Source: a virus
IMG/VR virus record: IMGVR_UViG_3300042470_001405
Location: 1-24,479 of that record
DNA: 24,479 nt
Direction: 5' to 3' (one strand)
Part shown: one piece after another, positions 1 to 21,198 of the stretch
Numbering within the stretch: position 1 is the first letter of the stretch
Layout: each line of letters starts with the position of its first letter
Made by a program: the position numbers and the translations under genes
Notes under the pieces: model-generated
The model's database searches: none
What the model was told of the DNA's origin: nothing
What the model saw: only the letters and a program-made list of their open reading frames with translations

Positions 1-1451
1 TAAATACAGGAAGAAATCCTGTAATCGAATTGAACTTTGGTGCTTCTGATTTTGTAATACCCAACTACGGATTTACAAGATTTTTATTTGATTTAGATTT
101 ATCTCTTTTAATTTCAAATATACAAAGTGGAGTAATATCTACGGGTTGTACGCCTGGTATAAGTGGTTTGACTCACACTTTGAAAATGACAAATACCTCA
201 TCATTTGATAATGAATTATTGAATACATTCATGTCAAACGAAAGAAGAAGAGCAACTTCATTTGATTTATTTTTGTTTAGAATCCCACTTTTCAGTGGAA
301 ACACAGGTTCAACACAACCTTGGGACGAGGGTGTAGGATATGATTATAATGATTTCAATATCAACCAAAATAGTGCTCAAGGTGGTGCGAATCCTTTGAC
401 ATACGTTGACCCAAGAGCTTTCTCTACAAGACCTTCAAATTGGTACCAAACTTCGACTGTGGACAATTGGTCTGAGCCAGGAGTTTATAACAACAAAAAT
501 TTGGGTGTTGTAAATTTTTCAGCCCTAACAATCATAGACCAACAACATTTCGAGTTCGGTAATGAGGATATAAACATGGACATGACATCTGAAATAAATG
601 GAATTTTAGATGGAACAATTACAGGTGTTACAGGATGGGGTATTGCATATTTTCCACAAGTTGAAAATATAACAGGTTTGACAGACAGTTATTCGGTTGC
701 CTTTTTCTCAAGACATACTCAAACGTTCTACCAACCTTATCTTCTTACCAACTACGACGATTACATCAAGGACGATAGAAATATCTTCCTAAAAAACCAA
801 CAAAATAAATTGTATCTCTATGTATACCAAAACGGAGATTTGTCGAATTTAGACACGCTTCCGTTCGTTAGGATTGAAGATAGACTTGGAGTTGCTGTAA
901 GTGGTATGGGTTCTCTAACAACTTGTTTGAGAACAAAAGGGGTATATGAGGTAATTATTCCTGATGGATTCACAGGAGCAACTCCATGTGAATACTTTGA
1001 CGTTTGGTCCGGTCTAACTATAAACGGACAACCTTTACCAAATGTTACAAATCAGTTTATACTTCAACAATACAGTGCTGGTATACAAATAGGTTCACAA
1101 TCAAAAGAACCTTCAATATATGGATTTGATTTTTATGGTATCCTCCAAAATGAACAAATTTTAAATACTGATATCAGAAAGGTAGGGGTGACAATTAAAA
1201 AGGCATACACAGGGCAAGTGCTGTTAGAAAATATCTCAGCATTTTATAGGGTTTACGTAAAAGAGGGCACCACAGAAGTCCAAGTTCAAGATTGGACTCC
1301 GATAAATAGAACCCCCAACGAGTATTATTTCATATTTGATATGAGAGACAAAATACCAAATCAATATTATGTTGATATCCAAGTGAACACTTCAGGTGAG
1401 AAGGATACTTATAAGAAACAATTAACTTTTAATATAGTAAATGTAAAATGA
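1..1451 (+). CDS. Putative virion structural protein, 5'-truncated
   Basis: The reading frame is open to the left edge (first full codon at 3, no upstream stop), so the gene begins outside the window and about 483 codons are visible. An in-frame TTG at 30 is a poor start candidate because the coding pattern continues upstream of it. I do not recognise the family. The protein is large, rich in Asn, Thr, Gly and aromatic residues, has few Lys-rich or helical stretches, and looks beta-rich, which is typical of tail, baseplate or fibre proteins. The segment near visible residues 80-115 (RRRATSFDLFLFRIP, then WDEGVGYDY) is compact and probably conserved. No signal peptide or membrane segment is seen. 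Its stop overlaps the next start as ATGA, so the two are translationally coupled. The structural role is inferred from composition and context only. Confidence 0.6.
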   Translation, partial: NTGRNPVIELNFGASDFVIPNYGFTRFLFDLDLSLLISNIQSGVISTGCTPGISGLTHTLKMTNTSSFDNELLNTFMSNERRRATSFDLFLFRIPLFSGNTGSTQPWDEGVGYDYNDFNINQNSAQGGANPLTYVDPRAFSTRPSNWYQTSTVDNWSEPGVYNNKNLGVVNFSALTIIDQQHFEFGNEDINMDMTSEINGILDGTITGVTGWGIAYFPQVENITGLTDSYSVAFFSRHTQTFYQPYLLTNYDDYIKDDRNIFLKNQQNKLYLYVYQNGDLSNLDTLPFVRIEDRLGVAVSGMGSLTTCLRTKGVYEVIIPDGFTGATPCEYFDVWSGLTINGQPLPNVTNQFILQQYSAGIQIGSQSKEPSIYGFDFYGILQNEQILNTDIRKVGVTIKKAYTGQVLLENISAFYRVYVKEGTTEVQVQDWTPINRTPNEYYFIFDMRDKIPNQYYVDIQVNTSGEKDTYKKQLTFNIVNVK

Positions 1452-1906
1452 AACGTATAATTAAAATAACAGAAAAAGATATCACCAAGTTGGTGAAAAA
1501 AGTGATGAAAGAACAACAGTCACCTAATTATATGTTTTTTAGTAATTTAGAACAAATTAGAAGGCAAGCCGACTTATTATTACAATTAGACCCCAATACT
1601 GTTGACGAAATTTTGATGGCAGGACACGATTGGGCCGATGACCACATTACTGTTGCGAAGGAAAACATGGACCAGGTTTTTGATTTTATGATGAATGAAA
1701 CTAAAACATCTAATTACCCTGAGGACAATTTGAGTGAGGGGGAGAAGAAAACAGGAACAAAACTTTGTGCAAGAGGTAAAGCAGCGGCAAAGGCCAAATT
1801 CAAAGTCTATCCAAGTGCATACGCAAATGGATATGCGGTTCAGGTTTGTAAAGGTTCAATGCCAGGATTGGATGGTAAAAAACATTGTTCAGGTTCTTAT
1901 TGTTAA
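1448..1906 (+). CDS. Small phage protein with N-terminal helix motif and Cys/Lys-rich C-terminus
   Basis: The 152-residue protein starts at an ATG overlapping the previous stop by four bases (ATGA), implying coupling to the virion gene. Residues 6-23 (KITEKDITKLVKKVMKEQ) form an amphipathic helix motif that recurs in two other proteins of this window. The C-terminal part, residues 104-152, is basic and has four cysteines (107, 134, 147, 152) around KFKVYPSAYAN, a signature I associate from memory with small proteins of marine T4-like phages. The cysteines could form a disulfide or metal site. The middle (30-100) is helical and acidic. The function is unknown, and association with the virion is inferred from the neighbour. 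A frame overlapping its end was judged a shadow. Confidence 0.75.
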   Translation: MKRIIKITEKDITKLVKKVMKEQQSPNYMFFSNLEQIRRQADLLLQLDPNTVDEILMAGHDWADDHITVAKENMDQVFDFMMNETKTSNYPEDNLSEGEKKTGTKLCARGKAAAKAKFKVYPSAYANGYAVQVCKGSMPGLDGKKHCSGSYC

Positions 1907-1933: not shown

Positions 1934-2356
1934 ATGGAAAAGAAAATTGTCGGTTACGTACCAAAATTACTCTACAAGGTTTATCTCTATCTTCAAGAAA
2001 AATTTGACCCACATCCCGAAGTGACTTACGAGGAACAAACCTCCGTTGAGATTTGTAAGAATTTAATAAAAGAATCTGAATCTCGATTGACATTTGCTCC
2101 ACGTTCATTGAAAAGGTTTATCAAAAATGATAATTTTGGAATGTTCATTGTGATACATCAAAGAACTTTATTTCTTATCAATCACGTATATAGTTACAGC
2201 GTATACATTGAAAATTCAGATTTATATTCTGAACTCATAGAACTATTCGACTCGGAATTAGAAAACAGAAGAGAAGTTCTCGAAAAAGAAATGAGAAGTA
2301 ATATTCAACATTCCTTAGAGGATATTCTTAAAAGGGTGACTAATAATTCTCTTTAA
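1934..2356 (+). CDS. Hypothetical protein, 140 aa
   Basis: I do not recognise this protein. It begins at ATG 27 bases after the previous stop. Mixed alpha/beta pattern: a basic, aromatic N-terminus (PKLLYKVYLYLQEKF), a central hydrophobic strand pair (GMFIVIHQRTLFLINHVYSY, about residues 77-96) and a charged helical C-terminus. The hydrophobic stretch is interrupted by His, Gln, Arg and Asn and is more like core strands than a membrane span. There is no Shine-Dalgarno sequence. Its 3' end overlaps the 3' end of the convergent minus-strand gene by 17 bases, and no terminator hairpin lies between them. Confidence 0.65.
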   Translation: MEKKIVGYVPKLLYKVYLYLQEKFDPHPEVTYEEQTSVEICKNLIKESESRLTFAPRSLKRFIKNDNFGMFIVIHQRTLFLINHVYSYSVYIENSDLYSELIELFDSELENRREVLEKEMRSNIQHSLEDILKRVTNNSL

Positions 2357-3038
2357 TTATTCTCCTAATCAATCTTTCCAAAGATTCCTTTCTTGGCATA
2401 TATGAAGACATCGTCGGTTTATTACCTTTACCAACTTTAGGCTCCTTTTTTTCAGCATTCCTCTTTTTCTGACAGGCAGCTCTTTTTTGGGAATCACTCA
2501 TTTTTGAAGCAACATGAACGGCTCTACATTTCGGATATGCCTTAGATGATGCATTTTTTCTACCACAAGGGGGATGTTTACCATTTTCCTTTCTACATAT
2601 ATTCACCCATGGACCTTTAGGTTGTTTACTTCCTTTGGGTTTTTTTTTCGTTCCGAACCACACGGCTAAATCTTCTTTGATTAGTTGTTCCTCCAAAGTT
2701 TGATTCACCAAATCAGCCACCTCAGGAGGTAAACCAGACATTGTGGGGTTCAAAGCAGACCCCTCTTCATCATTTTGTCCTGTGTAAAATTGTTTGAGAT
2801 ACATGTCCACCTGAGAAATTTTATCAGTTTTATTTTCGATTTCTTCTCTTTCTTCAGGTGACTCTAAATAATCACCATCCGCTTCTTCATAAGCCAATTC
2901 TGCATTATCATAATGATAAACTTTATCCGTGAAGGGGCCCAATTGATTGTCTTTCCAAATTTGAGGTGCTAACACTACAGGTACTTTGAATTTACCCGAG
3001 CTAGCTGATGTTGTAGCCTCTTTTATTGTTTTTCTCAT
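2340..3038 (-). CDS. DUF5872-like protein with Cys/Lys-rich domain
   Basis: 232 residues with ATG start. The N-terminal half is acidic and low-complexity (many Asp/Glu at about 55-75). Residues about 140-195 carry a basic cysteine domain: GPWVNICRKENGKHPPCGRK, then AYPKCRA and SDSQKRAACQKKR. From memory this pattern fits the DUF5872 family found in phages and some bacteria, whose function is not known. The last 16 residues (KESLERLIRRIIKENY) repeat the amphipathic helix motif seen at the start of the 1448 gene. It is read convergently with the 1934 gene and divergently from the 3079 gene, with a palindromic TATTTATAAATA element between the last two. Association with the virion or packaged DNA is plausible but only inferred. 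Confidence 0.75.
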   Translation of the reverse strand: MRKTIKEATTSASSGKFKVPVVLAPQIWKDNQLGPFTDKVYHYDNAELAYEEADGDYLESPEEREEIENKTDKISQVDMYLKQFYTGQNDEEGSALNPTMSGLPPEVADLVNQTLEEQLIKEDLAVWFGTKKKPKGSKQPKGPWVNICRKENGKHPPCGRKNASSKAYPKCRAVHVASKMSDSQKRAACQKKRNAEKKEPKVGKGNKPTMSSYMPRKESLERLIRRIIKENY

Positions 3039-3357: not shown

Positions 3358-5199
3358 TTATCTCAACTCTTTCAAATCGAATGTTCTAACACCATCAACT
3401 GTGATTCTACCATAGAATCTGTTGTTCACCATTTTCTTAGCATATCTAGTCATGATACCTTTGATTGGTGTGAAGTTGAATGGATTATACATTGTTGGAG
3501 TAAGTTGTAATGGTACATATGGTGCGTAGATGTAACCTGTGTCAAGAAGCGATGTTCCTTTGTGTCCAATCAACACTTGGTTTGGTGGGAAGTAAGGGTC
3601 TCTGTAAACTTGATATCTACCAGCGAGAGTACCTACTCTTTCAATACCCATGTTATATTGGTCCTGCTCAGGAGCCGCGTTTGATACGTGGAAATATTCC
3701 AAATCATCAAAAATTGCAGAAACCTCAGATGACACAACAATCCAGTTAGCACCACCTCTCAAAGTAGATTTGTGAATTTGTGCCGACAATTGGTTGATTG
3801 CAGTAATCAAAGTTTGATTCCAGTCTTTTTGAGTATAAGAAACAGCACCAGTACCGTTACCTAATCTCTTCCATCCGTTGTAATCCCATCTCAAGTTCCA
3901 AGCCGCACCTTTTCTGAGGTCTCTCAAGATTTCTCTGTCGATTTCAGCAGCAACTTGCTCTGACAATAAAGCTGTCAATTCAGCTTCAGCGTCAATGTTG
4001 TGGAATGCCGCGACGTCTTGTGCCATTTCAGGTGACCATTGAGCTCTCAATTTTCTTTCAGTTACAGAAACTGTCACTGACATAAGGTCGAATGAAACCT
4101 CACCAATCTTATCTTCGAATTCTAAGTTCTTATAGAGTCTATAAGTTGCTGTAAATGCGTTGTTCGAATCAGTGTTAGATGAGAATGTTGAACCTGTATA
4201 ACCGTCCATAGATGGTCCACAAGTAATACATGTTGGAACTTGAAGGTCGATTTCCAAGTAAATGTTGCCATTCACATCACAAATGTTATCATACTGACCA
4301 CCATCAGTTAAAGAATTCGGGAAGTCTAACCGAGCATTGTTGTCACCGTATTCTACGATACCCTTACCATATCTTTGAGTTACTACTCTGAAAAGATAAG
4401 GACCACCACCCGCAGTAGTTGTGTTGCTAGAAACACCATAAATTGTCAAATCAGACAAGAATGCTTCTGTGTCAATTGGGTTACCATCAGGACCAATCAA
4501 TTTACCAGCAGCTGCTTGTGCGAATCCACTCATGATTACAAGAACTTTTCTGAAGTTACTTGCTGAGTTACCTACAATCGGAGTAGTTGTGTTGTAATTG
4601 CTTGGTACTAAATTCAACGTAGTATTATCCCAAGCTGCTGTAACAACTGATGTAACTGCCGATGTAATTGTTGAGAATGAACCTTTTGAGTAGTCAAATA
4701 AACCTGGTGGGTCTAATGCTGGTTCGTTACCTTCATAAAATCTATCATAAAGGTCTCTTCCATCGTTATAGTTATAACCTTTATTTGGTGAATCAGGACC
4801 ATCTGGTGCTCCATAAGGTGCGTAGTGCTCTGAAAGACCTGGAAGTGATGGAGTATCACTATAGCTCTGAATGTTAGGTACAAAATAGAACAATTTACCG
4901 ATTGGTAAGTTCATAGCCTGTACAGATACGATATCGTTAGCTAACAATTTAGAGAATACTCTTCTAACGATAGGGAAAACCACAGTTTCAAACGCACCTG
5001 TGTCAGATGTCGTTGAAGCTTCGTTTATCAAATAGCTAGCTTGGTTTTCATAAAGCTGCGCGATATTTTCTCTCATGTGACCTTTAAGACCCTCTAAGAA
5101 TCCTAATTTGTCCCATTTTCCGATTGTGTCTTCTTTGATAACTTTAAGGTGTTTTAACCCGATGTTACCAACAAGACCTGATTCTAATAATGCTCCCAT
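3358..5199 (-). CDS. gp23: Major capsid protein (T4 gp23-like)
   Basis: 613 residues (T4 gp23 has 521). The N-terminal 110 residues carry T4-type signatures: GLVGNIGLKHLKVIKEDT, then LYENQASYLINE, then VVFPIVRRVFSKLLANDIVS and VQAMNLPIGKLFYF. The protein forms the hexamers of the prohead shell. A prohead-protease site of the (L/I)-x-E / (A/G) kind is present at I58-N-E60 / A61, so about 60 residues would be removed at maturation, as in T4. Residues about 115-345 are more variable, Gly/Asn/Thr-rich, and probably hold the outer insertion domain. The C-terminus again has conserved-looking capsid segments (KLRAQWSPEMAQDVAAFHNI; GVRTFDLKELR). It lies 31 bases downstream of the scaffold gene in T4 order, without its own obvious promoter, and ends at the strong terminator at 3314. 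Confidence 0.96.
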   Translation of the reverse strand: MGALLESGLVGNIGLKHLKVIKEDTIGKWDKLGFLEGLKGHMRENIAQLYENQASYLINEASTTSDTGAFETVVFPIVRRVFSKLLANDIVSVQAMNLPIGKLFYFVPNIQSYSDTPSLPGLSEHYAPYGAPDGPDSPNKGYNYNDGRDLYDRFYEGNEPALDPPGLFDYSKGSFSTITSAVTSVVTAAWDNTTLNLVPSNYNTTTPIVGNSASNFRKVLVIMSGFAQAAAGKLIGPDGNPIDTEAFLSDLTIYGVSSNTTTAGGGPYLFRVVTQRYGKGIVEYGDNNARLDFPNSLTDGGQYDNICDVNGNIYLEIDLQVPTCITCGPSMDGYTGSTFSSNTDSNNAFTATYRLYKNLEFEDKIGEVSFDLMSVTVSVTERKLRAQWSPEMAQDVAAFHNIDAEAELTALLSEQVAAEIDREILRDLRKGAAWNLRWDYNGWKRLGNGTGAVSYTQKDWNQTLITAINQLSAQIHKSTLRGGANWIVVSSEVSAIFDDLEYFHVSNAAPEQDQYNMGIERVGTLAGRYQVYRDPYFPPNQVLIGHKGTSLLDTGYIYAPYVPLQLTPTMYNPFNFTPIKGIMTRYAKKMVNNRFYGRITVDGVRTFDLKELR

Positions 5200-5230: not shown

Positions 5231-6973
5231 TTAGTTTATCTTACTCATCAAATCTTTCATTCTCAAGAATTGAGGATTTTCGTAGGTTTTTGACTCTATA
5301 AGATTCACTGCTGAACCTGAAGAAACATTCTTATTTAATTTTGTTTCAACAGCTTCAGTTATTGGTTTAGTTTCTTCAGTTGATAATTCGTCTTTGATTG
5401 CTTTATAAAGATTTTTAGATTCTTTCAAAGTTTCAACTCCGTCAAATCTTCTGAGGATGTTTATTTTTTCTTTTTTAGTTGTTGAGTGTTCAGTGAAAAG
5501 TCTAGTTGCGTATGCAAGATTTGAATTGAAGATTGCAACTTCGTTCAATTTTTCTCTAAACACATTTAATGCTTTTCTATACTCATCATTTTTTTCTCTC
5601 AACATACTAACTTCTGCTTCAAGAGATTCTACTTTCACACCATTAGAACCATACACAAAGTTTCTATTGTTGGTGATGCCTTTTCTTAGACCTCTACCTT
5701 CTTTAGAACCCATACCGTAAGTTCTTGCCGCTTCTTTAGTTTCTCTTTTTTCGAAACCCGCGTCATCTCTACGAGACTTTTCTTTTTTAGAATGTGAACC
5801 TTTGAGATGCTTCATAGCTGTTTTACCATGCTTCATTCCCAATTTTTCATCTTCTTTATCTTTGTATCCCTGACGACCTTCTTTGGTTTCAACTTTCTTG
5901 GATTTACCTTCCATATTAGCACCTTTCTTGTATTCGAATTTAGCCTTACCAGTTCCCATAGTTTTAGGACCTTCTTTTTTGTCCTCTTTGAAACCACCTT
6001 TTGCAGTTGTCTTGTATGAGAACTTTGGACCTTTACCAATTCCAACACCTTTAGGTTTTATCGCTTTCTTGTGATTGTAAGACTCCTCAATAGACTCTTC
6101 CCAATTACCCTCTTCTAAATCATCAGATTCTTCTAAATCGTCTGATTCTTCTAAATCATCAGCTTCTTCTAAATCGTCTGATTCTTCTAAATCATCAGCT
6201 TCTTCCAAATCGTCTGATTCTTCTAGGTCATCTGACTCTTCTAAATCATCAGCTTCTTCTAAATCATCCGACTCAGCCATTTCATCGGCCTCATCATCAG
6301 CTTCATCATCAGCTTCATCATCAGCTTCATCGTCATCTTCTCCTAGTTCGATTTCATACATGACTTCATCTTCCATTTCCATTTCGTCAGAATCGACGTC
6401 AACGTCCATTTCAGTTTCAGTATCATCTTCCATAGAATCTACGTCAACTTCCATTTCAGTTCCTGGTTCATCGAATAAAGTCGCCATAATGTCATCGATT
6501 GTTGCTTCTTCCATTTCTTCTTTCATAGTTTGTCTTTTGTTTTTAGACTCACCCATGTTGACTAAATACTCAACATCAGAATCATCATCAGTGATGTGTA
6601 AATTATTACCATCTTTTACTACGGTGATTGAATCCTCAGGATTCATACGTTTGAAGATTTTGAAAAGTTCGTCGTTGGGTAAACCGGTTAAATCTTGAGT
6701 TTCGGGTTCATTTTCAAAGTCGATTTCAATTTCGTCTGAAAAATCATCCATTTTATCAGTATCCATGTCCATTTCTGTGTCATCCACGTCTGTAGACATT
6801 TCAACTTCGTCGTCTTCAATCTCATCTTGTTCAGAAAGAGATTCTTTTACTAATTGGTTGATTTCTTCCTTCATAGTTGAAGCAAGTATTCCTTTTGCAT
6901 TCTCGGCGATAGCCTCTTCAACATTTTTCATTTGAATGAGCGCCTCTTCTACTAAATTTTTATTTTCTTGCAT
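5231..6973 (-). CDS. Prohead scaffold/core protein (gp22 position) with acidic repeats
   Basis: 580 residues, ATG start, directly upstream of the capsid gene, as gp22 is in T4 (269 aa there). Residues 47-298 are strongly acidic and include four DDEA units (214-229) and nine (S/A)DDLEE units (235-288). Residues 302-436 switch to a basic Lys/Gly-rich region with KFSYK and KFEYKK segments. Residues 445-510 form a probable coiled coil (VESLEAEVSMLREKNDEYRK). T4 gp22 is an acidic, helical core protein that gp21 degrades to peptides. Position and composition support the same role here; I see no direct sequence signature of gp22. Three repeat junctions read LEE/A and the last reads LEE/G, matching the gp21 cleavage consensus. 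An unusually long scaffold of this kind might also carry DNA-like charge mimicry followed by a basic segment. Confidence 0.75.
   Translation of the reverse strand: MQENKNLVEEALIQMKNVEEAIAENAKGILASTMKEEINQLVKESLSEQDEIEDDEVEMSTDVDDTEMDMDTDKMDDFSDEIEIDFENEPETQDLTGLPNDELFKIFKRMNPEDSITVVKDGNNLHITDDDSDVEYLVNMGESKNKRQTMKEEMEEATIDDIMATLFDEPGTEMEVDVDSMEDDTETEMDVDVDSDEMEMEDEVMYEIELGEDDDEADDEADDEADDEADEMAESDDLEEADDLEESDDLEESDDLEEADDLEESDDLEEADDLEESDDLEESDDLEEGNWEESIEESYNHKKAIKPKGVGIGKGPKFSYKTTAKGGFKEDKKEGPKTMGTGKAKFEYKKGANMEGKSKKVETKEGRQGYKDKEDEKLGMKHGKTAMKHLKGSHSKKEKSRRDDAGFEKRETKEAARTYGMGSKEGRGLRKGITNNRNFVYGSNGVKVESLEAEVSMLREKNDEYRKALNVFREKLNEVAIFNSNLAYATRLFTEHSTTKKEKINILRRFDGVETLKESKNLYKAIKDELSTEETKPITEAVETKLNKNVSSGSAVNLIESKTYENPQFLRMKDLMSKIN
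6110..6271 (-). repeat. Nine 18-bp tandem repeats encoding (S/A)DDLEE
   Basis: In-frame tandem repeat inside the scaffold gene, residues 235-288. Unit order by first residue is S A S S A S A S S, followed by Gly. Units differ by a few bases (TCATCA/TCGTCT alternation), so the array is not freshly amplified. It has no spacers and is not a CRISPR array. Confidence 0.95.
6287..6334 (-). repeat. Four 12-bp tandem repeats encoding DDEA
   Basis: In-frame repeat of residues 214-229 of the scaffold gene, seen on the plus strand as repeated TCATCAGCT-like units. It lies just upstream in the protein from the 18-bp array and adds to the same acidic tract. Confidence 0.9.
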
Positions 6974-8695: not shown

Positions 8696-9409
8696 TTATT
8701 TTCCTAAATAATCGGATAATTTTTTCATCAAATCAAGTGATTTGTTTGTGGTTGGGTCTGATTTAACCTTTTTTTCTTCTTCCAAATTTTCTTCGTACTT
8801 GTGTCTGTCATTTACATCAGAAAACAAATAAGCACCTGGTGTTGAAGGTGAAGATACCAAATCAAAACAAATCAATTCGAAATCATCTTGAACTTCATTT
8901 CTTTCCCCGACCTTTTTCAAAGACCCTACCCCTCTTGATGAAACCCCCATAGTGACACCTTGTCTCATAAGGTTAGCTGCAACATCCCCTTTAGAGGATA
9001 CTATCCCCCTCTCGTGAAACCCTGGAGTTGTCAATAATTTTAATTTTCCCATTAGAATATTTTTATCCCACCATATATCAGTGATAAGATGTGATACTCT
9101 ATCTAAATCTATAAGTGAAGACTCAGGGTGATTTAATTCAGAAGTAGATAATCCTTTTTCAATTATTTTTTTATATCTATCGGATTCTCTCTTCAAAATT
9201 TTTTCTGGGTAAAACCTACCATTTCTGTTTGGGGTGTCATACTTCTGAAGTACAGCATAAAATTCAAAAGGATTTCTATAATCCAAATTTTTAGCTTCTT
9301 TTAACATATTTGCATTATGTTCATCTCTTGGGGAAACATAACCAGCGTCCATCTCTATTAAAATACCATGTCCTGTTTCATGTGCCTCTAAAATTCTGAG
9401 TTGTTTCAT
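8696..9409 (-). CDS. gp21: Prohead maturation protease (T4 gp21-like, peptidase S77)
   Basis: 237 residues (T4 gp21 is 212). Hallmarks in order: YDTPNRNGRFYP (58-68), ELNHPESSLIDLDRVSH (91-107) with candidate catalytic His94, GVTMGVSSRGVGSL (151-164) with candidate Ser157 or Ser158, and LICFDLVSSPSTPGA (179-193) with candidate Asp183. The enzyme sits inside the prohead, cleaves capsid and core proteins after Glu at (L/I)-x-E / (A/G), and then degrades itself. The charged C-terminal tail (200-237) may be an autocleaved part. The start is an ATG with an unusual AAAAGGAAGA just before it, the most Shine-Dalgarno-like sequence in the window. It lies in T4 order between portal and capsid, with extra genes on both sides. 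Confidence 0.95.
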   Translation of the reverse strand: MKQLRILEAHETGHGILIEMDAGYVSPRDEHNANMLKEAKNLDYRNPFEFYAVLQKYDTPNRNGRFYPEKILKRESDRYKKIIEKGLSTSELNHPESSLIDLDRVSHLITDIWWDKNILMGKLKLLTTPGFHERGIVSSKGDVAANLMRQGVTMGVSSRGVGSLKKVGERNEVQDDFELICFDLVSSPSTPGAYLFSDVNDRHKYEENLEEEKKVKSDPTTNKSLDLMKKLSDYLGK

Positions 9410-9957: not shown

Positions 9958-10146
9958 ATGTTGATTATCGAAATAACCAAATCGGAAAATTTAGAGAAGG
10001 CTTTGAAAGTTTTGAAATCTAAGGTAATAAAGACAAAACAAAATCAAAAGTTATTGGAAAAGAAAGAATTTGAAAAGAAGTCTGTTACTAAAAGAAAAGC
10101 ATTACTAAAAGCAAAATATACTCAAAGAAAGAAAACGAACCTATAG
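9958..10146 (+). CDS. rpsU: Ribosomal protein bS21
   Basis: 62 basic residues with the full-length bS21 pattern of Bacteroidetes: MLIIEITKSENLEKALK, then KSKVIKTKQ, FEKKSV at 38-43 where bacterial copies have F.KPSV, and KAKYTQ at 51-56. Host proteins are about 64 residues, so it is complete. bS21 is a small-subunit protein near the mRNA exit and the 3' end of 16S rRNA. In Flavobacterium, bS21 with bS18 and bS6 hides the anti-Shine-Dalgarno sequence. Tyr54 here falls in the KAxYxQ segment implicated there (from memory). Phage bS21 genes are known in several marine and lake phages and are thought to replace the host copy on ribosomes. The gene is the only plus-strand gene within the head block, and its stop codon is shared, as palindrome CTATAG, with the convergent gene. 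Confidence 0.88.
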   Translation: MLIIEITKSENLEKALKVLKSKVIKTKQNQKLLEKKEFEKKSVTKRKALLKAKYTQRKKTNL

Positions 10147-10839
10147 GTTTTTTTCCAAACTCACTAATTTTACATAGTTCATCTGATTAAAATCCTGAGT
10201 TTGAATTTTCTCTATAGTCTCTTGTATTTTAGATTTTAATTCCTGTTCTGATTCGTTTGTGAGGATTGTTTTTAATTTATCTATTGTAGATTCTTTCAAG
10301 TTTTGATAATCTTCCTTCAAGTTTTTACTATCTGTTTTTACCACATTCATGAAAACTTTTTTAGAATCTTCATCCATATTTGTGATGTAATTCTCTAATG
10401 TCTGATTGGCAATTTTAACCATACTAGAAACAGGTAACTTTATAGATTCCTTCAGACTTTCTTTCTCAGATTTCAAAATTTGAATGATTTCCTTTTTAGC
10501 GTTTACGCGTTCAGATAAATTTAAATTATTTGTGTAAACTAGTGTGTCAATATTTTTGTAATTATTATTAGTAGTCTCTTTAGCAAGTTTGGGTAATTTT
10601 ACTGTTGGTAAAATTCTATTGATTACAGATAATCCTTCTTCTAAAAAATCTTTAGCATCACCTTCGTTCAAACCTTGATTTGTAGATAACTGGTCATAGA
10701 CAGAATAAAGTTTGGATATTGATTTATTATTCAATATATTAGACTTAAATTCATTGATACTTTTCTTGAATTCTTTTTCACTTTTGTAAGATTCAATCAA
10801 GTGGTTTTCTATGGCGGTTTTTATCTGTCCGAATGTCAT
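10141..10839 (-). CDS. Helical protein in the prohead-core position (232 aa)
   Basis: Nearly all-helical, Lys/Glu/Ser/Asn-rich protein with no Cys and only scattered aromatics. The N-terminus (MTFGQIKTAIENHLIESYKS) and residues 50-75 (ILNNKSISKLYSVYDQLSTN) look like the conserved part. The C-terminal 100 residues read as long amphipathic helices, a probable coiled coil. It lies immediately downstream of the portal, where T4 encodes the core proteins gp67 and gp68, and before the protease. A role as prohead core or assembly protein is inferred from position and helicity alone. Its last six bases overlap the bS21 gene end to end. Confidence 0.7.
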   Translation of the reverse strand: MTFGQIKTAIENHLIESYKSEKEFKKSINEFKSNILNNKSISKLYSVYDQLSTNQGLNEGDAKDFLEEGLSVINRILPTVKLPKLAKETTNNNYKNIDTLVYTNNLNLSERVNAKKEIIQILKSEKESLKESIKLPVSSMVKIANQTLENYITNMDEDSKKVFMNVVKTDSKNLKEDYQNLKESTIDKLKTILTNESEQELKSKIQETIEKIQTQDFNQMNYVKLVSLEKNL

Positions 10840-10862: not shown

Positions 10863-12692
10863 TTAGGAATTTAGTAACTTGTCTAACTGCTTGGTAATTT
10901 CACCCAAAGAATTTTGCCCATGTGACAAATCTATGTTGGTTGAACCTTCAATAAAGTTATTTTCAACTAAAATGTTCAGTTCTTTAGATTTAGATTCCGG
11001 TGTAACTTCGCCTCCTTCGGGTGGTGCTTCCCCACCAGCAGGTTCTTCAGGTGTGGGTGGTGATGGCGGTGACATTGGTTCTATTCCTGAAGGTTCAAAT
11101 CCACCTCCAGTTTCGGTTGCAGTTTGAGTTGGTGTTCCTCCCGTTGTTGACCCGTATAATTTATCTAGATTATCAAATATTCCCGTTTTGGTAATAACTG
11201 TTGGAGTGGCTTTCAATTCTTCACCGACCGCTCTCTCCAATCTCTGTTGTTGTAAATCTAATTTGACTTCATCGTCTGACCAACCAAAAATATGTTTTTT
11301 AGCCCATGTTGTAGAGGTTGCTGAAATTCCACCTCCAGGGTCAGATACCATGTCTTTATAAAGTGTAACTTTTTCTTTCCAGACATCAATTTTGAGTAAA
11401 TCAGCTTGAGTGGATGGATTAGTAAGACCCAAAGTAAAATTATCAAGTTCATCTTCAAAACCTAAAAGAAACAGATGAACAATTGCAATTTTATTCAGTT
11501 CCTGTAACATACTTTTTTGAATCCTGTTTATTGTTCTGGCGAACCTAATATCCTGCAAAGAAAGATTCTTACCGTCACCCACAACTTCTTCAAACCCTAA
11601 AAACGCTTTGGGTACTCTTAAAGCTGTCAACAGTTTTTTCTGAATATATTCAATATCCGCAATTTCTGATAGATTTTGTGCACCAGGCAAGGTATCTATT
11701 GGACTAGGTGCTGCTGGGTCACGTACAGGTACAAAATAGTCTTGGTCAACGGCCATCTGATTGAATCTCATATCCACTTGACCTGTCTTACTGTCAACAA
11801 TTTGTTCTCTCTTGAATTTGTTTGCCACACGTTGTACATACGCTTCAACATCGTCATCATTCATGTTTCCGACAAATACCTTGAATATCCTTCTTTCTGG
11901 AGCTCTCGAAGTACGATAAATCAACATCGCATCTTCGGATAACAATAATTGTTTCCAAATTCTTCTGGCTTTTTCAAGCATTGAAGTTCCGTATGGTAGC
12001 CTTCTATCATCACCCAACAGTCTAAAGTGAGCAATTTCCCAAGACTGAAAAGTCATGTTTTTATTTTTCCAATCGAAGTGAAGTGCTTTTCTATCTTCAG
12101 GTCTATCGGGTTCTACTGTAATTTTTTGTGAAGTACCAACTTCTCTTCTCTCAATTTCGATTGTAGGTAGTTGTTGACAACCAACAATTCCCTTTTCTGG
12201 GTCGAGTTTGAGGTAAACAAAGTTATCACCATACTTACATGTATTTCTTGTCCACATTGGTAAATTGGTGTTGATATCCAATGTATTGTTGAAAAGGTCG
12301 GCTAAAACTGATTTGATTCTTTTTGATTCTGAATAAATCTGTAATATGAAACCATCCTCATTGGTAGTTGTTGATTCCTCAGCATAAATGTCCAACGCCG
12401 CAGAAATTTCAGGTGTATACTCCATAGACTCATAATCATATTGTGCGGAGAGTCTTGATGGTTCATAATAAATGGCTTGAGAATATAAATTGTTTTCAAC
12501 TTTAGCCCATTGATTTGCTAAATAAAAACTTTGTTGTGCTTGTAATTTTTCCCTTTCGTATTCAGCTCGGTCGGTGGTACGTAGTAATACTTTTTTATCA
12601 AACTTATATGTAGGATAATCCTGACCTAATAAAGAATTGGGTCCAAAGGTTTTGGATAACCTCTGCCAAATAGTTAAATTCTGTTCACTCAT
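10863..12692 (-). CDS. gp20: Portal protein (T4 gp20-like)
   Basis: 609 residues (T4 gp20 is 524). Characteristic blocks: YTPEISAALDIYAEESTT, WTRNTCKYGDNFVYLKLD, RRLPYGTSMLEKARRIWKQ, then YRTSRAPERRIFKVFVGN, DYFVPVRDPAAPSPIDTLPG with QNLSEIADIEYIQKKLL, and RVPKAFLGFEE. Twelve copies form the ring at one capsid vertex through which DNA is packaged, and the ring nucleates prohead assembly with the core. The extra length is mostly a Pro/Gly/Glu/Thr-rich C-terminal tail (about residues 510-575) ending in a short helix, absent from T4 and probably flexible. The start is an ATG 30 bases after a TATTTAT element. It directly follows the terminase gene; T4 has sheath and tube genes at that place. Confidence 0.96.
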   Translation of the reverse strand: MSEQNLTIWQRLSKTFGPNSLLGQDYPTYKFDKKVLLRTTDRAEYEREKLQAQQSFYLANQWAKVENNLYSQAIYYEPSRLSAQYDYESMEYTPEISAALDIYAEESTTTNEDGFILQIYSESKRIKSVLADLFNNTLDINTNLPMWTRNTCKYGDNFVYLKLDPEKGIVGCQQLPTIEIERREVGTSQKITVEPDRPEDRKALHFDWKNKNMTFQSWEIAHFRLLGDDRRLPYGTSMLEKARRIWKQLLLSEDAMLIYRTSRAPERRIFKVFVGNMNDDDVEAYVQRVANKFKREQIVDSKTGQVDMRFNQMAVDQDYFVPVRDPAAPSPIDTLPGAQNLSEIADIEYIQKKLLTALRVPKAFLGFEEVVGDGKNLSLQDIRFARTINRIQKSMLQELNKIAIVHLFLLGFEDELDNFTLGLTNPSTQADLLKIDVWKEKVTLYKDMVSDPGGGISATSTTWAKKHIFGWSDDEVKLDLQQQRLERAVGEELKATPTVITKTGIFDNLDKLYGSTTGGTPTQTATETGGGFEPSGIEPMSPPSPPTPEEPAGGEAPPEGGEVTPESKSKELNILVENNFIEGSTNIDLSHGQNSLGEITKQLDKLLNS

Positions 12693-12729: not shown

Positions 12730-14493
12730 TTATTTAGCTCCAAATAACCATCCATATTTTTGATAATCGGCCTTAGTTGGACCATTTGTAGGATACATAC
12801 CTGAGTTGCGATTAGACTGTGGAACCATTGGGTTGAAATAATCTGATGTATTTTTATTTTCATTCACGGTCGATGTCCAAGAATTCAACATTGCCTTGGT
12901 ATGATTGACAACTTTTTGTAGCGATTGGAATGATTTTTCTGCAACATAAATTGCCATGGATATAGCCATAATACAATCATCGTGGTGTCCCTTTTGATGG
13001 TCAGGTCTACCATTTATGAAGATGAAAGTATTCATTTCATTATATAATCGATTAGAATAAATTTTGAAATCATGTCGCACCGCTTCCTCAAGCGATGCAA
13101 TAATTTGAACCCTTTTAGAATTAAAATTTATACCAGGTATTTTTTCATTTGCTTTAGGGTCCCACTTCCATTTCTTGTTCGGGTCTATGTTGTCAACATA
13201 CAATCCACCTTCATAATTCAATTCTTGCATTTTACGGGCAGTTGAAATTCCCATCCCACCAGTTATATCAATCACACAAAAGGCTCTATACATAGTACCC
13301 CACTTATAAGCAATTTCAGCAAGTACATCTGGTGGGATTTTACCGACGTATTCCAAAACCTGTTCTTTTGTGTCAAAATCAATAATCTCAATACATGAGA
13401 AATCTTCTGAATCTCCTCTTGAAACATCCACCCCCATAACGTACTTATGATTATTTTCAGGCTCTTTGAATATCCACAATGAGCTTCCCATCAATTTAGC
13501 TTGAGGTTCTCTAAGGCTATTCTTAGCAATATTTTGCATCAACTCAGATTCAAAAACATTGTCCCCTGACCCCAAGAAATTACACTCCAATTCTTGTGCA
13601 ACTTTTCTTCTGTCAAATTTCAATTTTTTGACCATTCCCTCAAACCAAGCAGAACATGGTTTATAACCCTTATTGATGTAATCTGTGGTTATTGAATGGT
13701 CTCTCTCATATGGATTATCTATTGAGAGGTCAACTACAACGTCTTTGGGATAATCTTCTCTATTCAATAAAAAATGAACGAGGTCATTAGTTTTGACCAT
13801 GAACAAATCCTTGGTATATCTTGGGTCTCTATACCAATACATCTCCGAGATTTTAAACTCATTCATTCCTCTCAATGCTTGGTCATAAATTTCATAATAG
13901 ATTGGGTCATATCCGTTAGGGGTTGAAACAACTATCACTTTACCACCTGTTGATAGAGATGCCATACAAGCAGACCAGAAATCATTATCTGCTTCAATGA
14001 ACGCAGCTTCGTCAAAAATCAATATTGTTGGCGTGTAACCACGTAAGGCGTCCTTGGATGTTGCAACCGCTTTAACCTCACAATCATTCGAAAGTTTGAA
14101 ATGTCTTTGGGAGTTTTTTTCTGCAGAAAAACCGATACCAACCCATTCTGGCCATTGTTCAGTGAATGACCTTATTTTGTTAGCCATCTCGACAGAAGTG
14201 TCAAGTTTGTTGGCAATAATTAGAATTTTTTCAGGTTTTTGTTTTTTTGCAAAAACTAATTTTTTTGATGCCCAAGCGGCAGTTACAGTAGAAACACCCG
14301 CCTGTCTATATTTCAGAGCAATGTTTTCGTTGTACGAATCATAATCTTCAATCAATCTTACTTGGTCAGGAAATAAATCTAAAGGGACATATTTTGATAC
14401 GGTGTTATCGTAAGTTTGTAAATATGCTTTGAGTGCATAGGGAGTATTCCTCATACACTTTGTATATTCAATAATTAGTTGTTCTTTTGTCAT
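12730..14493 (-). CDS. gp17: Terminase large subunit (T4 gp17-like)
   Basis: 587 residues, close to T4 gp17 (610). ATPase half: a Walker A-like loop KYRQAGVSTVTAA (61-73), Walker B TILIFDEAAFIE (156-167) and coupling motif VVSTPNG (188-194). The loop lacks the usual GK(S/T) lysine. Nuclease half of RNase H fold: VMGVDVSRGD (Asp356), CVIDITGG (Asp409) and GHHDDCIMA (Asp505/Asp506), so all metal-binding acids appear intact. The enzyme pumps DNA through the portal and cuts the concatemer. It starts six bases after the previous gene, in an overlapping gene series, and is followed directly by the portal. No small terminase subunit is recognised in the window. Confidence 0.97.
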   Translation of the reverse strand: MTKEQLIIEYTKCMRNTPYALKAYLQTYDNTVSKYVPLDLFPDQVRLIEDYDSYNENIALKYRQAGVSTVTAAWASKKLVFAKKQKPEKILIIANKLDTSVEMANKIRSFTEQWPEWVGIGFSAEKNSQRHFKLSNDCEVKAVATSKDALRGYTPTILIFDEAAFIEADNDFWSACMASLSTGGKVIVVSTPNGYDPIYYEIYDQALRGMNEFKISEMYWYRDPRYTKDLFMVKTNDLVHFLLNREDYPKDVVVDLSIDNPYERDHSITTDYINKGYKPCSAWFEGMVKKLKFDRRKVAQELECNFLGSGDNVFESELMQNIAKNSLREPQAKLMGSSLWIFKEPENNHKYVMGVDVSRGDSEDFSCIEIIDFDTKEQVLEYVGKIPPDVLAEIAYKWGTMYRAFCVIDITGGMGISTARKMQELNYEGGLYVDNIDPNKKWKWDPKANEKIPGINFNSKRVQIIASLEEAVRHDFKIYSNRLYNEMNTFIFINGRPDHQKGHHDDCIMAISMAIYVAEKSFQSLQKVVNHTKAMLNSWTSTVNENKNTSDYFNPMVPQSNRNSGMYPTNGPTKADYQKYGWLFGAK

Positions 14494-14499
14494 TCAGAA

Positions 14500-15813
14500 T
14501 CATTTGGGTCGACTTATACCCAAATTACTCAAGAAATCATCCAAATCATCATCGTCATCATCGGAATCACCATCTTTGTTCTGGTCTTCCAAATAGTCAT
14601 CATATTCTTTTTTCAACTCCATAGCCTTTTTCATAATCTCTTGAAAACGTTCTTTAGCTTTGGAAACTTTGGCATTGTCATTTGAAATGGTGTTACCAAT
14701 AATTTGAAGAAATTCGCGAGCTGGAATTTGGTATAATTCAATTTCGAACCAGTTTATTAAACCTTTATTGTCTGAATCGAACATTTCGTCAGGTAAGGCA
14801 AATCTAATTTTTTCAACAATTTCAGGTCCTAATCTCAACTGCATGGGTTCGTTAGATAAAACATCAACGGCACCTTTTACCTTTTCACGCATTTGAGGGT
14901 CTTTCGGAAGACCAAATCTAGCATTAGCTTTTTTAATTCCTTTAATAATCTCATGACATAAAATCGGAAAGAATAAACCTTCAGCTACTATTTTTGTATC
15001 GGGTTTCTCTTGAGATTCTTCTTCTCCTTCTCCGCCTCCCTCGTCGTCTGCATCTTCTAATGATACTTTACCGGCAACACCATTTCCTGTGGCAGACATT
15101 TGTTCAATCATCTGTTCCATAGTGAAATACAATAAATCATTTACTGCCATAACACCCAAGTAAGCAGGAAACAATCTTGAGTCTATTGCATCCAACTTTC
15201 TTTTAACTTCAGGCTTTTGGAATAAATAATGTCCTTTTTTTGCAGCACCTTGTACAACAGCGTTTATAATATTTCTTTTATGTTTTTCTAATTCGAGTTC
15301 TTCTTGTGGAGTTAAATTTTCAATATCGAAGTCGTCGAAACTTAAAGTTTGTTTTTTTTCCTCGTCATCCTCTTCTTCCTCATCTTCAGGTTCTTCTGGT
15401 TCATATCTGAAATTATTTACGTCAATAGGTTCTCTATTTAACATTGCTTCAATTTGATACCAACCTTCAGGAGTCTCAGTTTCTTCAAGTGATACATCTG
15501 TAGCTAACTTTTCAAGTTCCTCTTTGTGTTGGGACTCAATTCTCAAAATCATAGGAACCTTACTCATCTCCTCCATGTAAATCCTTTGGATTACATTAGG
15601 AGTTAGTCTTTCCATACCTTTGACTTGACGTAATTTGTCAACAACTTTCTTAAATCTTTCTGTTGCGAGTCTTTCCACATCTTCAGCACCTTTTTGGAAT
15701 GCCGGAGAACTTGCATATAAACCCTCAGGACTTGAAAGTTTTCTTTCTAAGTTTGGGTCCATCCTTTCAGGATAGTTACCATAATCAATTGCTTCTGATG
15801 TTCTTTTTCTCAT
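14500..15813 (-). CDS. Phage protein upstream of terminase, acidic segments (437 aa)
   Basis: Unrecognised, strongly charged protein. The N-terminal part (1-130) is helical with RLTPNVIQRIYMEEMSKVPM. An acidic linker of Glu/Asp runs at about 138-153, a helical domain with RLFPAYLGVMAVNDLLYFTM follows at about 213-232, a Gly/Glu linker at about 257-271, and a domain containing LFFPILCHEIIKGIKKA and FEIELYQIPAREFLQIIGN. The C-terminus is nearly pure Asp (about 420-428) before the last ten residues. It overlaps the upstream gene by ATGA and ends six bases before terminase, so coupling with packaging or neck genes is likely. A neck, completion or terminase-partner role is possible, but I have no signature for one. 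Confidence 0.7.
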   Translation of the reverse strand: MRKRTSEAIDYGNYPERMDPNLERKLSSPEGLYASSPAFQKGAEDVERLATERFKKVVDKLRQVKGMERLTPNVIQRIYMEEMSKVPMILRIESQHKEELEKLATDVSLEETETPEGWYQIEAMLNREPIDVNNFRYEPEEPEDEEEEDDEEKKQTLSFDDFDIENLTPQEELELEKHKRNIINAVVQGAAKKGHYLFQKPEVKRKLDAIDSRLFPAYLGVMAVNDLLYFTMEQMIEQMSATGNGVAGKVSLEDADDEGGGEGEEESQEKPDTKIVAEGLFFPILCHEIIKGIKKANARFGLPKDPQMREKVKGAVDVLSNEPMQLRLGPEIVEKIRFALPDEMFDSDNKGLINWFEIELYQIPAREFLQIIGNTISNDNAKVSKAKERFQEIMKKAMELKKEYDDYLEDQNKDGDSDDDDDDLDDFLSNLGISRPK

Positions 15814-16646: not shown

Positions 16647-17037
16647 ATACAACTTTCTTTTCAAATTCGAGAATCAAATCTCTTTCGTATAATTTATCTT
16701 TTATAACTTGCTCTGACTCTCCAAACCTGAACACCATTCTCTTCTGACCTCTTACTTCCTCAGGTTCCCATGCCATCGCAACTACATCATCCAAGGCATC
16801 TATCATACAAAAAAAATCGGAGTTCTGAATCAATTCCAATTTAACATCAGTATTTCTCAAAACTCCTACCTTTTTTATATATTTCAACTCGGGAGGTAAT
16901 GGATAACCATTACTTGGTTTTGATTCCCAATTTTCTCCCCAAACGTCTTCCAAATTTTCGTCCGAAAATATGAATTCGTAAATGTTATCCCCTTTATAAT
17001 TGGGTCCTAAACCATTTACGAAAACCAATTTACTCAT
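16636..17037 (-). CDS. Conserved-looking T4-like phage hypothetical (133 aa)
   Basis: Compact alpha/beta protein with ATG start overlapping the previous stop (ATGA). Segments that look family-like: YEFIFSDENLEDVWGENW (21-38), SNGYPLPPELKYIKKVGVLR and SDFFCMIDALDDVVAMAWE (73-91). I recall similar small proteins in T4-like marine phages, near head and neck genes, with no assigned function. The C-terminus is charged and helical. Very even codon spacing and tight overlap with both neighbours show it belongs to one polycistronic unit from 18317 down to the terminase. Confidence 0.7.
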   Translation of the reverse strand: MSKLVFVNGLGPNYKGDNIYEFIFSDENLEDVWGENWESKPSNGYPLPPELKYIKKVGVLRNTDVKLELIQNSDFFCMIDALDDVVAMAWEPEEVRGQKRMVFRFGESEQVIKDKLYERDLILEFEKKVVYEN

Positions 17038-18340: not shown

Positions 18341-19180
18341 TTAATTGTTGAGTCCGTCAAATCCTCCTAATGTTATGGCATTTAGCTGTATTACCTGAAT
18401 TGTGTTACCATTAGGTAAATCCGCAGCATATCCTGGATGTGGTACTAGTGTACCAGGTGGTAATGTTCCCCCACTAAATGAACCAAGCATTTCCGCAGTA
18501 TATTCATAGTTTTGGTTTACTGATATACCACTATAAAATGGAGTTTGGGTGGGTGTTGGTGTTTGGGTTGGTGTCGCTGGAGGGGTACCTGTTTGTGTAG
18601 GCGTTGGAGTATTAGTTTTGGTTACAGTTGGTGTTGGTGTTGGAGTAACCGCTGAAGTTCCAGTTTGTGTTGGAGTAGCAGCAGGTGTACCTGTTTGTGT
18701 GGGTGTGGGTGTGTTGCTAGCAGTAATTGAAGGTGTGGGTGTATTACTGGCTGTAATTGAAGGTGTAGGTGTATTAGTTTTTGTTGGAGTATTCGTTGTT
18801 GTCACCGATGGTGTTGGAGTTTTTGTTGTTGTCGGTGTGACACTTGGAGTCCCTGTAGGTGTTGAGGTCACATTTGGGGTGTCGGTTTGAGTAGGTGTTG
18901 GTGTTGGGGTTTTAGTCTGTGTCACTGATGGGGTCGGGGTAGGTGTAACAATGGCTAAACAAGTCCCACAATCAACATGATTGATAGACATGAAGTTTAC
19001 AGTATCAGTTCCTGTGGCTGGTTCTGCATAATCAATTATCTCATAACATCCCTCTTGAGTTGCACCCGTGAACCTCAAAAAATAACAACCATTTACAGCA
19101 GGTAAATTACTACTATCAAAATCAACTAATATTGTTGTTCCGCCAAAACAAGGTGCTATTTGGTATGTTAATAAAGCCAT
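18341..19180 (-). CDS. Thr/Pro-repeat protein, probable virion stalk or fibre (279 aa)
   Basis: Three parts. Residues 1-79 form a small Cys-containing domain (Cys11, 32, 45, 71, 74, with a CGTC pair) rich in Gly and aromatics. Residues 80-214 are a Thr/Pro repeat of [10 protein letters not shown]- and [10 protein letters not shown]-type units with almost no charged residues. Residues 215-279 form a C-terminal Gly/Leu/Asn domain. No signal peptide is seen, as expected for a virion protein. Such repeats make extended, protease-resistant stalks and are good O-glycosylation substrates in other systems; both ideas are inference here. The place next to a wall-degrading protein fits a tail or surface appendage. 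Confidence 0.75.
18539..18943 (-). repeat. Thr/Pro-coding degenerate tandem repeat
   Basis: 405 bases encode residues 80-214, in units of about 5-10 codons. One 30-base unit encoding [10 protein letters not shown] is present twice in a row with few differences. On the plus strand the tract reads as GGTGTNGGTGT-like Gly/Val sequence. This is a likely hotspot for length variation by slippage. Confidence 0.93.
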
Positions 19181-19224: not shown

Positions 19225-21198
19225 TTATCTGAGACTTGGGCTTTTAATTGATGCTCCATTCTCATAACCACTGATTACTTTACCAACTAAGTCTCCCGTT
19301 CCCCAAGTTTCTAGAGAAGCACATTTAGCTATTTCAGCAGCACCTATATCATTTATTAAACCGTTTACGATACAATTATATCTCCCATTGGTTAGGGTTC
19401 TTAGTGTTGCGTACATACCATCATCTAATGTCTGATAATTTTGGACCCCCGCAGAGTTAAAATCGGTTGAGTTTTCGAGTTTGTGAGTTGTATTGAATGG
19501 ATTAAAATTACCTGCCTTACCCTCAGCTTGTCTCCAAGCCAATAAAAACTTCATATTTTCATTTGTTACAGGTGCACCTAGTTTGGTAAGTAAAGTTTGA
19601 TAAAAATCTTGGTCATTTTTTGACTCTAATCCGAAATCCCTATCATATTGAAGACCTCTCAAATCAGAATCAGTAAAACCTTTCTGTATCAACATAGCCA
19701 AAAGGTATTTGGAATCTTCTACTCCAAAAATTCCTGTTTGTGGTAACCCAACACTTGATTGAAAATCTTTAACAGCTCCTTGGGTTTCAGGTCCGAATTT
19801 ACCATCAACACCATATCTTGGTAAAGAAAACCCCAAAAATTGTAAACCTGATTGTATCACTTCTACGGGTTGTTCATATGGTATCTTTTGTCCTGGAGTA
19901 TATTCAAAATACAAACCGTCCTTCACGTAGGACATAATCTTTTTCAAGAAAACAGAATCTGATAAAGTATTCCAAACCATCTGTTGGTCTTTATTAGATT
20001 GTTTTTTTTGTTTTGATTTAGGGGTAACTTCAATTTCCCCTTTGGCACATTTTAGAGTACCATCGTCATTCAAAAATTCTCTTATATTGTGTCCATACTC
20101 AACTCCAATGTGCAGGTGGTCATAGGAACTTCCAGGAAAATCCATCACATATCCTAACAATTGTCCACATTTTACTTTGGAACCCTTTTGTACTTGAGCA
20201 TTCTGTAGATGAGTATAATATACATCGGGTAATGAATTATCACTCTTCACAGTGAATCCTATACCAAAAAGTTTTTTCCCTTGAGTTTTCCTTACCTTAG
20301 GTCCGTAGTCTTTGAAGGTTTTAACAGTTCCATCCGCAATTGCATAAACCGGTTCTCCGATAGGTGCTTTAATATCCCAAGCGTTACCACTAGCCCATCC
20401 ACTTTGACCCGCATGAGCACCATCTGCGGGTATTTTAACACTTGCGGAACCAAATAATCTATCACTTTGTTCAGTGATTTTTGATTCGATTGAAAGTTTT
20501 TTATCTTTAGCCTTTGTTATTGCCTCAAAAAGTTTTCCAATCATTTCCGACCTTCTCAAAAATTTGAAAACTAAATTTTCATAGGAAAACTCTCCTTCTT
20601 TTTCTAATCCCGATTTACGATATTTTTTTATTTTTTCTTTGAGAGATTTCATCTTATCGATATCCTCGGTTTCTATTGTATCATCAATTTTTGAAATCCA
20701 AGATTTCACTTTCTTTTTTAAAAAATCAAAATCTATTTCCGCATTTTCCTTGACTGGTTTTTGAATCCATTCATCATTCATTATGGAATAAACAGCACTG
20801 CTGGAATGTTCATCATCCGCACCTTGTGCATAAACCTCAACATCGTAACCATAAATGGTGATATCATATTTATTATTAAACTCTTTCTTTTTTAACTCGA
20901 AAATTTCTCTATACAATTCCTCATCTTCACCATATTTTCCGAAATCAACAAGCAAGTGTAAATCGAAGTCCGAAAATTCTGACCAGTTGTAATTTGCTAA
21001 AGAACCCATCAAGACAATATCTTCGATAAAGACATCGTCCCCTAAATCATCAGAAAATTCCTCAGCAATCTCAAGTAATTTTTTTCTTACTTCAGATTTT
21101 AGAGTTGCCTTATCAATATCCTCGTAGTTATCCCAAACCTTGGGATTCAAATTTTCTTGCAAAGAAAAACTATCTAAAATTTTTTGAAACTTCTTCAT
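19225..21198 (-). CDS. Four-domain protein: nucleotidyltransferase + M23 peptidase + PG-binding + muramidase-like
   Basis: 657 residues. Residues 60-125 hold a Pol-beta-type nucleotidyltransferase signature: MGSLANYNWSEFSDFD (Gly65-Ser66, Asp77, Asp79) and a third acid in YDVEVY (Glu121). Residues 250-372 form an M23 (LytM-like) metallopeptidase: AHAGQSGWASGNAWDI (His262, Asp275), APIGEPVYAIADGTV, YYTH (His330) and SYDHLHIGVEY (His361, His363). Residues 443-497 fit a PG_binding_1 domain (GVDGKFGPETQGAVKDFQ). Residues 548-645 resemble a phage muramidase fold, with WRQAEGKAGNFNPFNTT (candidate Glu559) and VQNYQTLDDGMYATLRTL. The last three parts degrade peptidoglycan at entry or exit; the start domain is unexpected. 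There is no signal peptide or transmembrane segment, so it is either virion-associated or needs a holin. The ATG follows a TATTTAT element by five bases. Confidence 0.88.
   Translation of the reverse strand: MKKFQKILDSFSLQENLNPKVWDNYEDIDKATLKSEVRKKLLEIAEEFSDDLGDDVFIEDIVLMGSLANYNWSEFSDFDLHLLVDFGKYGEDEELYREIFELKKKEFNNKYDITIYGYDVEVYAQGADDEHSSSAVYSIMNDEWIQKPVKENAEIDFDFLKKKVKSWISKIDDTIETEDIDKMKSLKEKIKKYRKSGLEKEGEFSYENLVFKFLRRSEMIGKLFEAITKAKDKKLSIESKITEQSDRLFGSASVKIPADGAHAGQSGWASGNAWDIKAPIGEPVYAIADGTVKTFKDYGPKVRKTQGKKLFGIGFTVKSDNSLPDVYYTHLQNAQVQKGSKVKCGQLLGYVMDFPGSSYDHLHIGVEYGHNIREFLNDDGTLKCAKGEIEVTPKSKQKKQSNKDQQMVWNTLSDSVFLKKIMSYVKDGLYFEYTPGQKIPYEQPVEVIQSGLQFLGFSLPRYGVDGKFGPETQGAVKDFQSSVGLPQTGIFGVEDSKYLLAMLIQKGFTDSDLRGLQYDRDFGLESKNDQDFYQTLLTKLGAPVTNENMKFLLAWRQAEGKAGNFNPFNTTHKLENSTDFNSAGVQNYQTLDDGMYATLRTLTNGRYNCIVNGLINDIGAAEIAKCASLETWGTGDLVGKVISGYENGASIKSPSLR

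Follow-up and report, generated by a model that had tools for sequence, protein, structure and literature searches.

Tandem (S/A)DDLEE repeats as candidate prohead protease sites in the acidic linker of a putative phage head core protein

Before DNA enters the head, phages must destroy the internal scaffold and empty the head of it. The DNA analysed here, the window of 24,479 nucleotides, is a 24.5-kb virus record by itself. The genes of Table 1 lie on its minus strand and follow one another, in the direction of transcription, in the order terminase, portal, a 232-residue protein, protease, small open reading frames, array protein and capsid protein (Table 1).

Table 1. Genes, segments and candidate cleavage sites of the window. 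A slash marks the predicted cut; fractions are numbers of relatives that have the site.
Feature	Position	Strand	Remarks
Terminase large subunit	12730..14493	-	PF03237; phrog_2
T4-type portal protein	10863..12692	-	Pfam PF07230, 262 bits
232-aa protein, portal-protease interval (place of gp67/gp68 in T4)	10141..10839	-	
gp21-type prohead protease (Peptidase S77)	8696..9409	-	Pfam PF03420
Putative site of protease self-cleavage, ILE8/A9	9383..9394	-	cf. LIE-9 of T4 gp21
580-aa acidic/basic protein, between protease and capsid genes	5231..6973	-	T4-type scaffold position
Candidate cut site VKE44/S45, N-terminal helix	6839..6850	-	78/80; invariant in alignment
Candidate cut site MGE142/S143, start of acidic segment	6545..6556	-	69/80; mostly LGE/S
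Second, shorter tandem array (DDEA)n, upstream in the protein	6282..6340	-	adjoins the DDLEE array
Nine (S/A)DDLEE units in tandem (the array), residues 235-288, junctions LEE/(S,A,G)	6110..6271	-	
Acid-to-basic boundary IEE297/S298	6080..6091	-	LDE/S or LEE/S in many relatives
Basic segment rich in Lys and Gly, residues 299-430	5684..6079	-	
Conserved family core: C-terminal helical domain, residues 450-531	5381..5626	-	pLDDT mostly 84-91
Candidate cut site LKE518/S519	5417..5428	-	70/80
Candidate cut site LIE560/S561	5291..5302	-	66/80
Gp23-type major capsid protein	3358..5199	-	Pfam PF07068, 241 bits
Candidate capsid maturation site (L)INE60/A61	5017..5028	-	T4 gp23 LTE65/A66 at the same place

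The array protein is comprised of an N-terminal helix, an acidic stretch, a Lys/Gly-rich basic stretch and a conserved C-terminal helical domain. The array is spanned exactly by nine 18-bp units, which begin with S A S S A S A S S in this order and are followed by GNWEES. An earlier note on this DNA had given the place and number of the (S/A)DDLEE units and had counted five LEE/S, three LEE/A and one LEE/G junctions, all of which is exact. The TRF score of the array is 246 at period 36 and 218 at period 18. From codon 2 to codon 6 all differences between units are synonymous (GAT/GAC, TTA/TTG/CTA, GAA/GAG); all Ala units read GCT GAT GAT TTA, and units 4, 6 and 8 have TCA GAC GAT in common. 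The 36-bp period and the shared codons show that the alternation of Ala and Ser is due to duplication of a 36-bp dimer. Two independent contigs (L001 and L007) also have the nine-unit length, so the array is no assembly accident of one contig. It carries a charge of about -36, the 84 residues preceding it carry -44, and residues 289-430 have a net charge of +18. The (DDEA)n array has Glu/Ala junctions but, with Asp in place of a hydrophobic residue at P3, does not conform to L/I-x-E. In the AlphaFold model, built from a shallow alignment of 26 sequences, residues 168-436, including the array, are unstructured with pLDDT <50, which fits disorder.

Searches of Pfam and PHROG with the 580-residue protein gave no match, and neither did tblastn against the phage collection. 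A fold search of BFVD with the model (pLDDT 51) was uninformative, its only hits below E=0.001 being two uncultured-phage proteins of unknown function. Alignment of profiles with hhalign showed that the C-terminal domain is homologous to the pre-capsid protein of Mel-JY01 and immuto (97.3%, E=2e-11, 106 columns). Membership in the T4 gp22 family (PF25623, T4_CASP) was rejected on sequence, with no Pfam match and a profile-profile E of 0.24 (probability 0.3%); the T4_CASP model strongly detects gp22 of T4 and of cyanophage S-RIM2, but not the 580-residue protein. The position of the gene is gp22-like, with the protease gene before it and the capsid gene directly after it, and this order is kept in relatives. 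L/I-x-E occurs 19 times in the protein against 10.7 in shuffled sequences (P=0.003) and, with the array removed, 10 times against 8.2, which is not significant. From position, composition and motif content we infer that this is the head core (scaffold) protein. No relevant publication on acidic repeats of prohead core proteins came up in a literature search.

The protease, which the earlier note had called gp21-like and had placed upstream of the array, is a real S77 homologue transcribed in the same direction. It scores 79.2 bits against PF03420 (cut-off 27) and matches the structure of T4 gp21, 5jbl, with E=2.1e-12. The catalytic His and Ser are kept: H94 and S157 align with H85 and S140 of T4 (the 5jbl sequence has Ala, the T4 genome His/Ser), and H94, S157 and D183 are invariant in 24 aligned proteases. 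The ILE of its putative self-cleavage site is kept in 15 of 16 aligned members of the clade, the remaining one, L075, having ILG. The T4-like LINE/A of the capsid protein is found in every relative shown. Both sites fit an L/I-x-E specificity, and cleavage is predicted at each. The 232-residue protein contains five [LIVM]xE[AGS] motifs against 0.8 in shuffles (P=0.001) and is possibly a second core substrate.

L/I-x-E is at expectation in the portal, the terminase and the protein encoded at 17034-18317. A 437-residue protein that is as acidic as the array protein and is encoded upstream of the terminase gene (14500..15813, minus strand) has two such motifs against 8.7 in shuffles (P=0.004), as if it were avoiding the motif of the protease. 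Short basic amphipathic tags containing hydrophobic-x-E are present in only two ORFs of the window, MKRIIKITEKDITKLVKKVMKEQ at the N terminus (residues 1-25) of 1448..1906 (plus strand) and LERLIRRIIKENY at the C terminus (last 15 residues) of 2340..3038 (minus strand); these could be head-targeting tags like the CTS of T4. A 279-residue protein at 18341..19180 (minus strand) has many TPTPTQT-type repeats, and its DNA contains 30-bp tandem repeats. Next to it, at 19225..21198 (minus strand), lies a 657-residue protein which, by eye, looks like a fusion of nucleotidyltransferase-like, M23-like peptidoglycan peptidase and peptidoglycan-binding parts.

T4 gp21 cleaves C-terminal to the Glu of L/I-x-E, no rule being stated for the residue that follows; its own site is LIE-9, and gp22 is cut to many fragments (PMC9026906). 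The gp22 sequence contains 16 L/I-x-E motifs against 5.7 in shuffles. T4 gp24 sheds ten residues (PMC9958956), which puts its site in the T4 genome at MAKINELLRE/S; the gp23 site is LTE65/A. The earlier note had ascribed to gp21 the rule (L/I)-x-E/(A/G) and had counted the five LEE/S junctions as near-matches. Both statements required correction: the published rule is L/I-x-E, and gp24 is naturally cut at LRE/S, so that Ser is acceptable at P1', LEE/S is a full match and all nine junctions, not four, match. The strict form was also rejected as a conserved rule, as it is present in the linkers of only 5 of 43 relatives. Related proteases favour S-x-E or A-x-E (PMC5694885, PMC7411985), and the specificity therefore needs checking group by group.

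The acidic region of the array protein (residues 151-298) contains 11 L-x-E or I-x-E motifs against 4.5 in shuffles, and 4 of the form (L/I)xE(A/G) against 0.4. A single array alone is weak evidence, because nine tandem copies count as one event. The residues S, D, D, L, E and E have 30 cyclic arrangements, of which 12 contain LxE and 3 contain LxE/S. That LxE is so frequent among arrangements of this composition speaks for a different and rather unlikely reading, in which the array is a plain polyanion, a disordered acidic filler for the charge or volume of the core; its repeats would come from slippage, and the motif would be incidental, Glu, Leu and small residues being common.

Searches anchored on the protease yielded some 80 different scaffolds that belong to the same group, and also scaffolds of other groups. 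The acidic segment is at the same place in nearly all same-group scaffolds, and 35 of the first 53 segments are significantly periodic. The units differ (MDEQEE, MMEDDS, DEADEM, NPEMEEEYY, EYMED, LEEGED, MDESDEME, MNMDEAEDDEA and others); judged by their sequences they mostly look unrelated to one another, and the unit families may have a distant common ancestry. Turnover of the units is fast. The linkers have a median of 63% Asp and Glu and charges from -7 to -75, and keep neither the sequence nor the length of the unit; acidic composition as the feature common to all relatives is what the filler reading would lead one to expect. The residue at P1' is often Glu, Gln or Asp, which again suits a filler, and P3 is mostly Met. 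By the criterion [LI]xE/[AGS], the acidic segment would be left uncut in 54 of 75 relatives. In three relatives (L063, L300 and L307) the tandem unit is LEEGED, an exact (L/I)-x-E/G that is unrelated to DDLEE.

DDLEE units number 7, 8 or 9 in the closest relatives. Leu and the P1 Glu are unsubstituted in their arrays, and the sole two substitutions (LDE) are at the free middle position; one Glu is lost, giving LED in L003, and this is accompanied by a 15-bp deletion. The earlier note had suggested comparing the phase of Ala and Ser in related phages. The closest relatives, among them a near-identical one with Ser only, do not support a meaningful phase: L003-L006 have Ser in all units and no LEE/A, and the alternation comes from the 36-bp duplication.

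Whether composition accounts for the motif can be judged from arrays whose units differ. In pooled linker contexts, the share of Glu over Asp at position +2 from Leu or Met is 0.76 (0.91 for Leu), and it is 0.39-0.58 at other offsets. The conserved flanks were then removed and the arrays clustered by common 8-mers (also by 7- and 10-mers; 6-mers yield one cluster). Over 25 clusters obtained with 8-mers, the residue at +2 from a hydrophobic one is Glu, not Asp, in 84% on average; 21 of the 24 informative clusters are up and 3 down (P=0.0003), and the figures are 14 of 15 up with 7-mers and 24 of 27 up with 10-mers. None of the other offsets from -4 to +5 is significant in the array clusters. 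Position +2 was again the highest, at 0.86, in 12 clusters of fresh arrays that have no 8-mer in common with those analysed first; the sign test on the fresh arrays alone is not significant (7 up, 4 down, P=0.55), and the two sets combined give 25 up and 6 down (P=0.0009). The bias is absent or flat in scaffolds of the immuto type (immuto clade) and cyanophage type. In acidic stretches of other ORFs the +2 value is 0.50, without bias, which argues against the filler reading, as does the scarcity of L/I-x-E in the acidic protein 14500..15813.

A second test reduced each tandem unit to one cyclic sequence, merged similar units into 23 families and compared these with shuffles of the same residues; one count per family means that nine copies cannot inflate the result. 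Of the 23 families, 20 contain hydrophobic-x-E, where 13.9 would be expected (P=0.0024), and 9 contain hydrophobic-x-E/(A,G,S), where 1.9 would be (P<5e-5). Mirrored and shifted control motifs are at expectation, and hydrophobic-x-D is depleted. When families were merged further, the longer motif stayed in excess (17 families, P<0.0001; 9 families, 3.4 against 0.7, P=0.0027), while the plain one had P=0.003 with 17 families and P=0.10 with 9 (6.9 against 4.6). There is thus an excess of hydrophobic-x-Glu in unrelated units. Since this test controls for composition and only Glu at +2 in the correct orientation is enriched, a filler would hardly account for it. The idea of a multi-cut strip, proposed in the earlier note, survives in a broader form, with the motif above chance in unrelated units and without the strict (A/G) rule and the phase of Ala and Ser.

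Docking motifs typically have acidic residues round a lone hydrophobic one, and DDLEE-like units have this appearance. Through them the core protein might bind a basic partner, which could be the capsid protein, cargo or the core protein's own lysine-rich segment; this segment comes directly after the array and has a charge of +18. Hydrophobic-x-Glu would then reflect docking. We consider this improbable, because the units of close relatives differ widely whereas the capsid N terminus is nearly identical, and because docking does not predict Ala, Gly or Ser right after the Glu, the strongest enrichment of all.

Besides the array, the scaffold has about six conserved hydrophobic-x-E sites, and in 43 relatives [LIVM]xE[AGS] occurs 334 times vs 107 in scaffold regions outside the linker. 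That the array is required for fragmenting the protein is unsupported: with its conserved VKE/S, LGE/S, LKE/S and LIE/S sites, the scaffold has other routes to fragmentation.

Taken together, the array is probably a set of candidate prohead protease sites (L/I-x-E, T4 gp21 type) placed in tandem in a disordered acidic linker of the core protein. Once the shell is complete, cleavage by the S77 protease would take place at a small number of conserved sites of the core protein and, in the acidic linker, every six residues, releasing hexapeptides, acidic and small enough for clearance. The units would expand, contract and be replaced through slippage and duplication, and selection would retain those with hydrophobic-x-Glu. 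Read most simply, the sequence of the units turns over but their role as substrates of the prohead protease is retained. A bolder proposal, which we put forward tentatively and rate somewhat below an even chance, is that the linker is a fast-evolving 'protease strip' whose units are lost and re-created from unrelated sequence, the hydrophobic-x-Glu site being selected each time so that the cutting pattern persists through a complete change of sequence. The weakest link of the claim in its broader form is Met at P3 together with an acidic P1', which are common in relatives; T4 sites document no Met at P3. We infer that the protease accepts the array sites, also those with Met at P3, and that cutting occurs. 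Peptide exit as the purpose of cutting, and unit number as a means of tuning timing or charge, are speculative. The fragments might instead be retained as internal peptides of the mature head, as T4 gp67, with an acidic tail after LIE/G, is annotated as an internal-peptide precursor; this outcome is very improbable, most core fragments leaving the head according to reviews (PMC9026906).

Multi-site cutting is already known; in this case the sites come as tandem repeats, which vary in number and sequence among close relatives while the motif is kept. The number of cuts and the fragment size that clearance needs could be studied in this natural series of variants, and substrate repeats offer a way of reading the specificity of a protease.

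Comparison with known systems suggests a T4-like process with an unusual layout, in which reduction of a long acidic disordered stretch to hexapeptides would be the added effect of the array. As in T4, the genes for protease, core protein and capsid protein follow in this order, the core protein is enriched in L/I-x-E, the protease is of the S77 family with the same catalytic residues, and the N-terminal site of the capsid protein is at the same place. T4 gp22, however, has 269 residues against 580, shows no detectable sequence similarity (T4_CASP) and has its sites spread through the protein, whereas those of the array protein are in tandem in the acidic linker. The array protein also resembles, with no homology implied, T4 gp67 (acidic) and gp68 (basic tail) in having a very acidic stretch beside L/I-x-E (LIE/G in gp67) and a basic stretch rich in Lys and Arg; the T4 proteins are small and separate, whereas the array protein joins the two stretches. 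The propeptides of the giant phages phiKZ and SPN3US (proteases gp175 and gp245) likewise carry several protease motifs, which according to the authors would make the fragments easier to clear from the head (PMC5694885, PMC9026906), but there the motif is S/A-x-E, the sites are not tandem repeats and the protease family is MEROPS S80 (PMC5694885). A homologous C-terminal domain, the same gene position and an acidic linker are shared with the pre-capsid protein of Mel-JY01 (a Microcystis phage) and immuto (a Flavobacterium phage), which differs in its length of 366-413 residues and in having no DDLEE array; the immuto clade has no +2 Glu bias. In the cultivated Mel-JY01 this protein (L083:4827-5927) has repeated PVEE/G, PMEE/G, PVEE/S and PVEE/N, and the phage is a practical test system.
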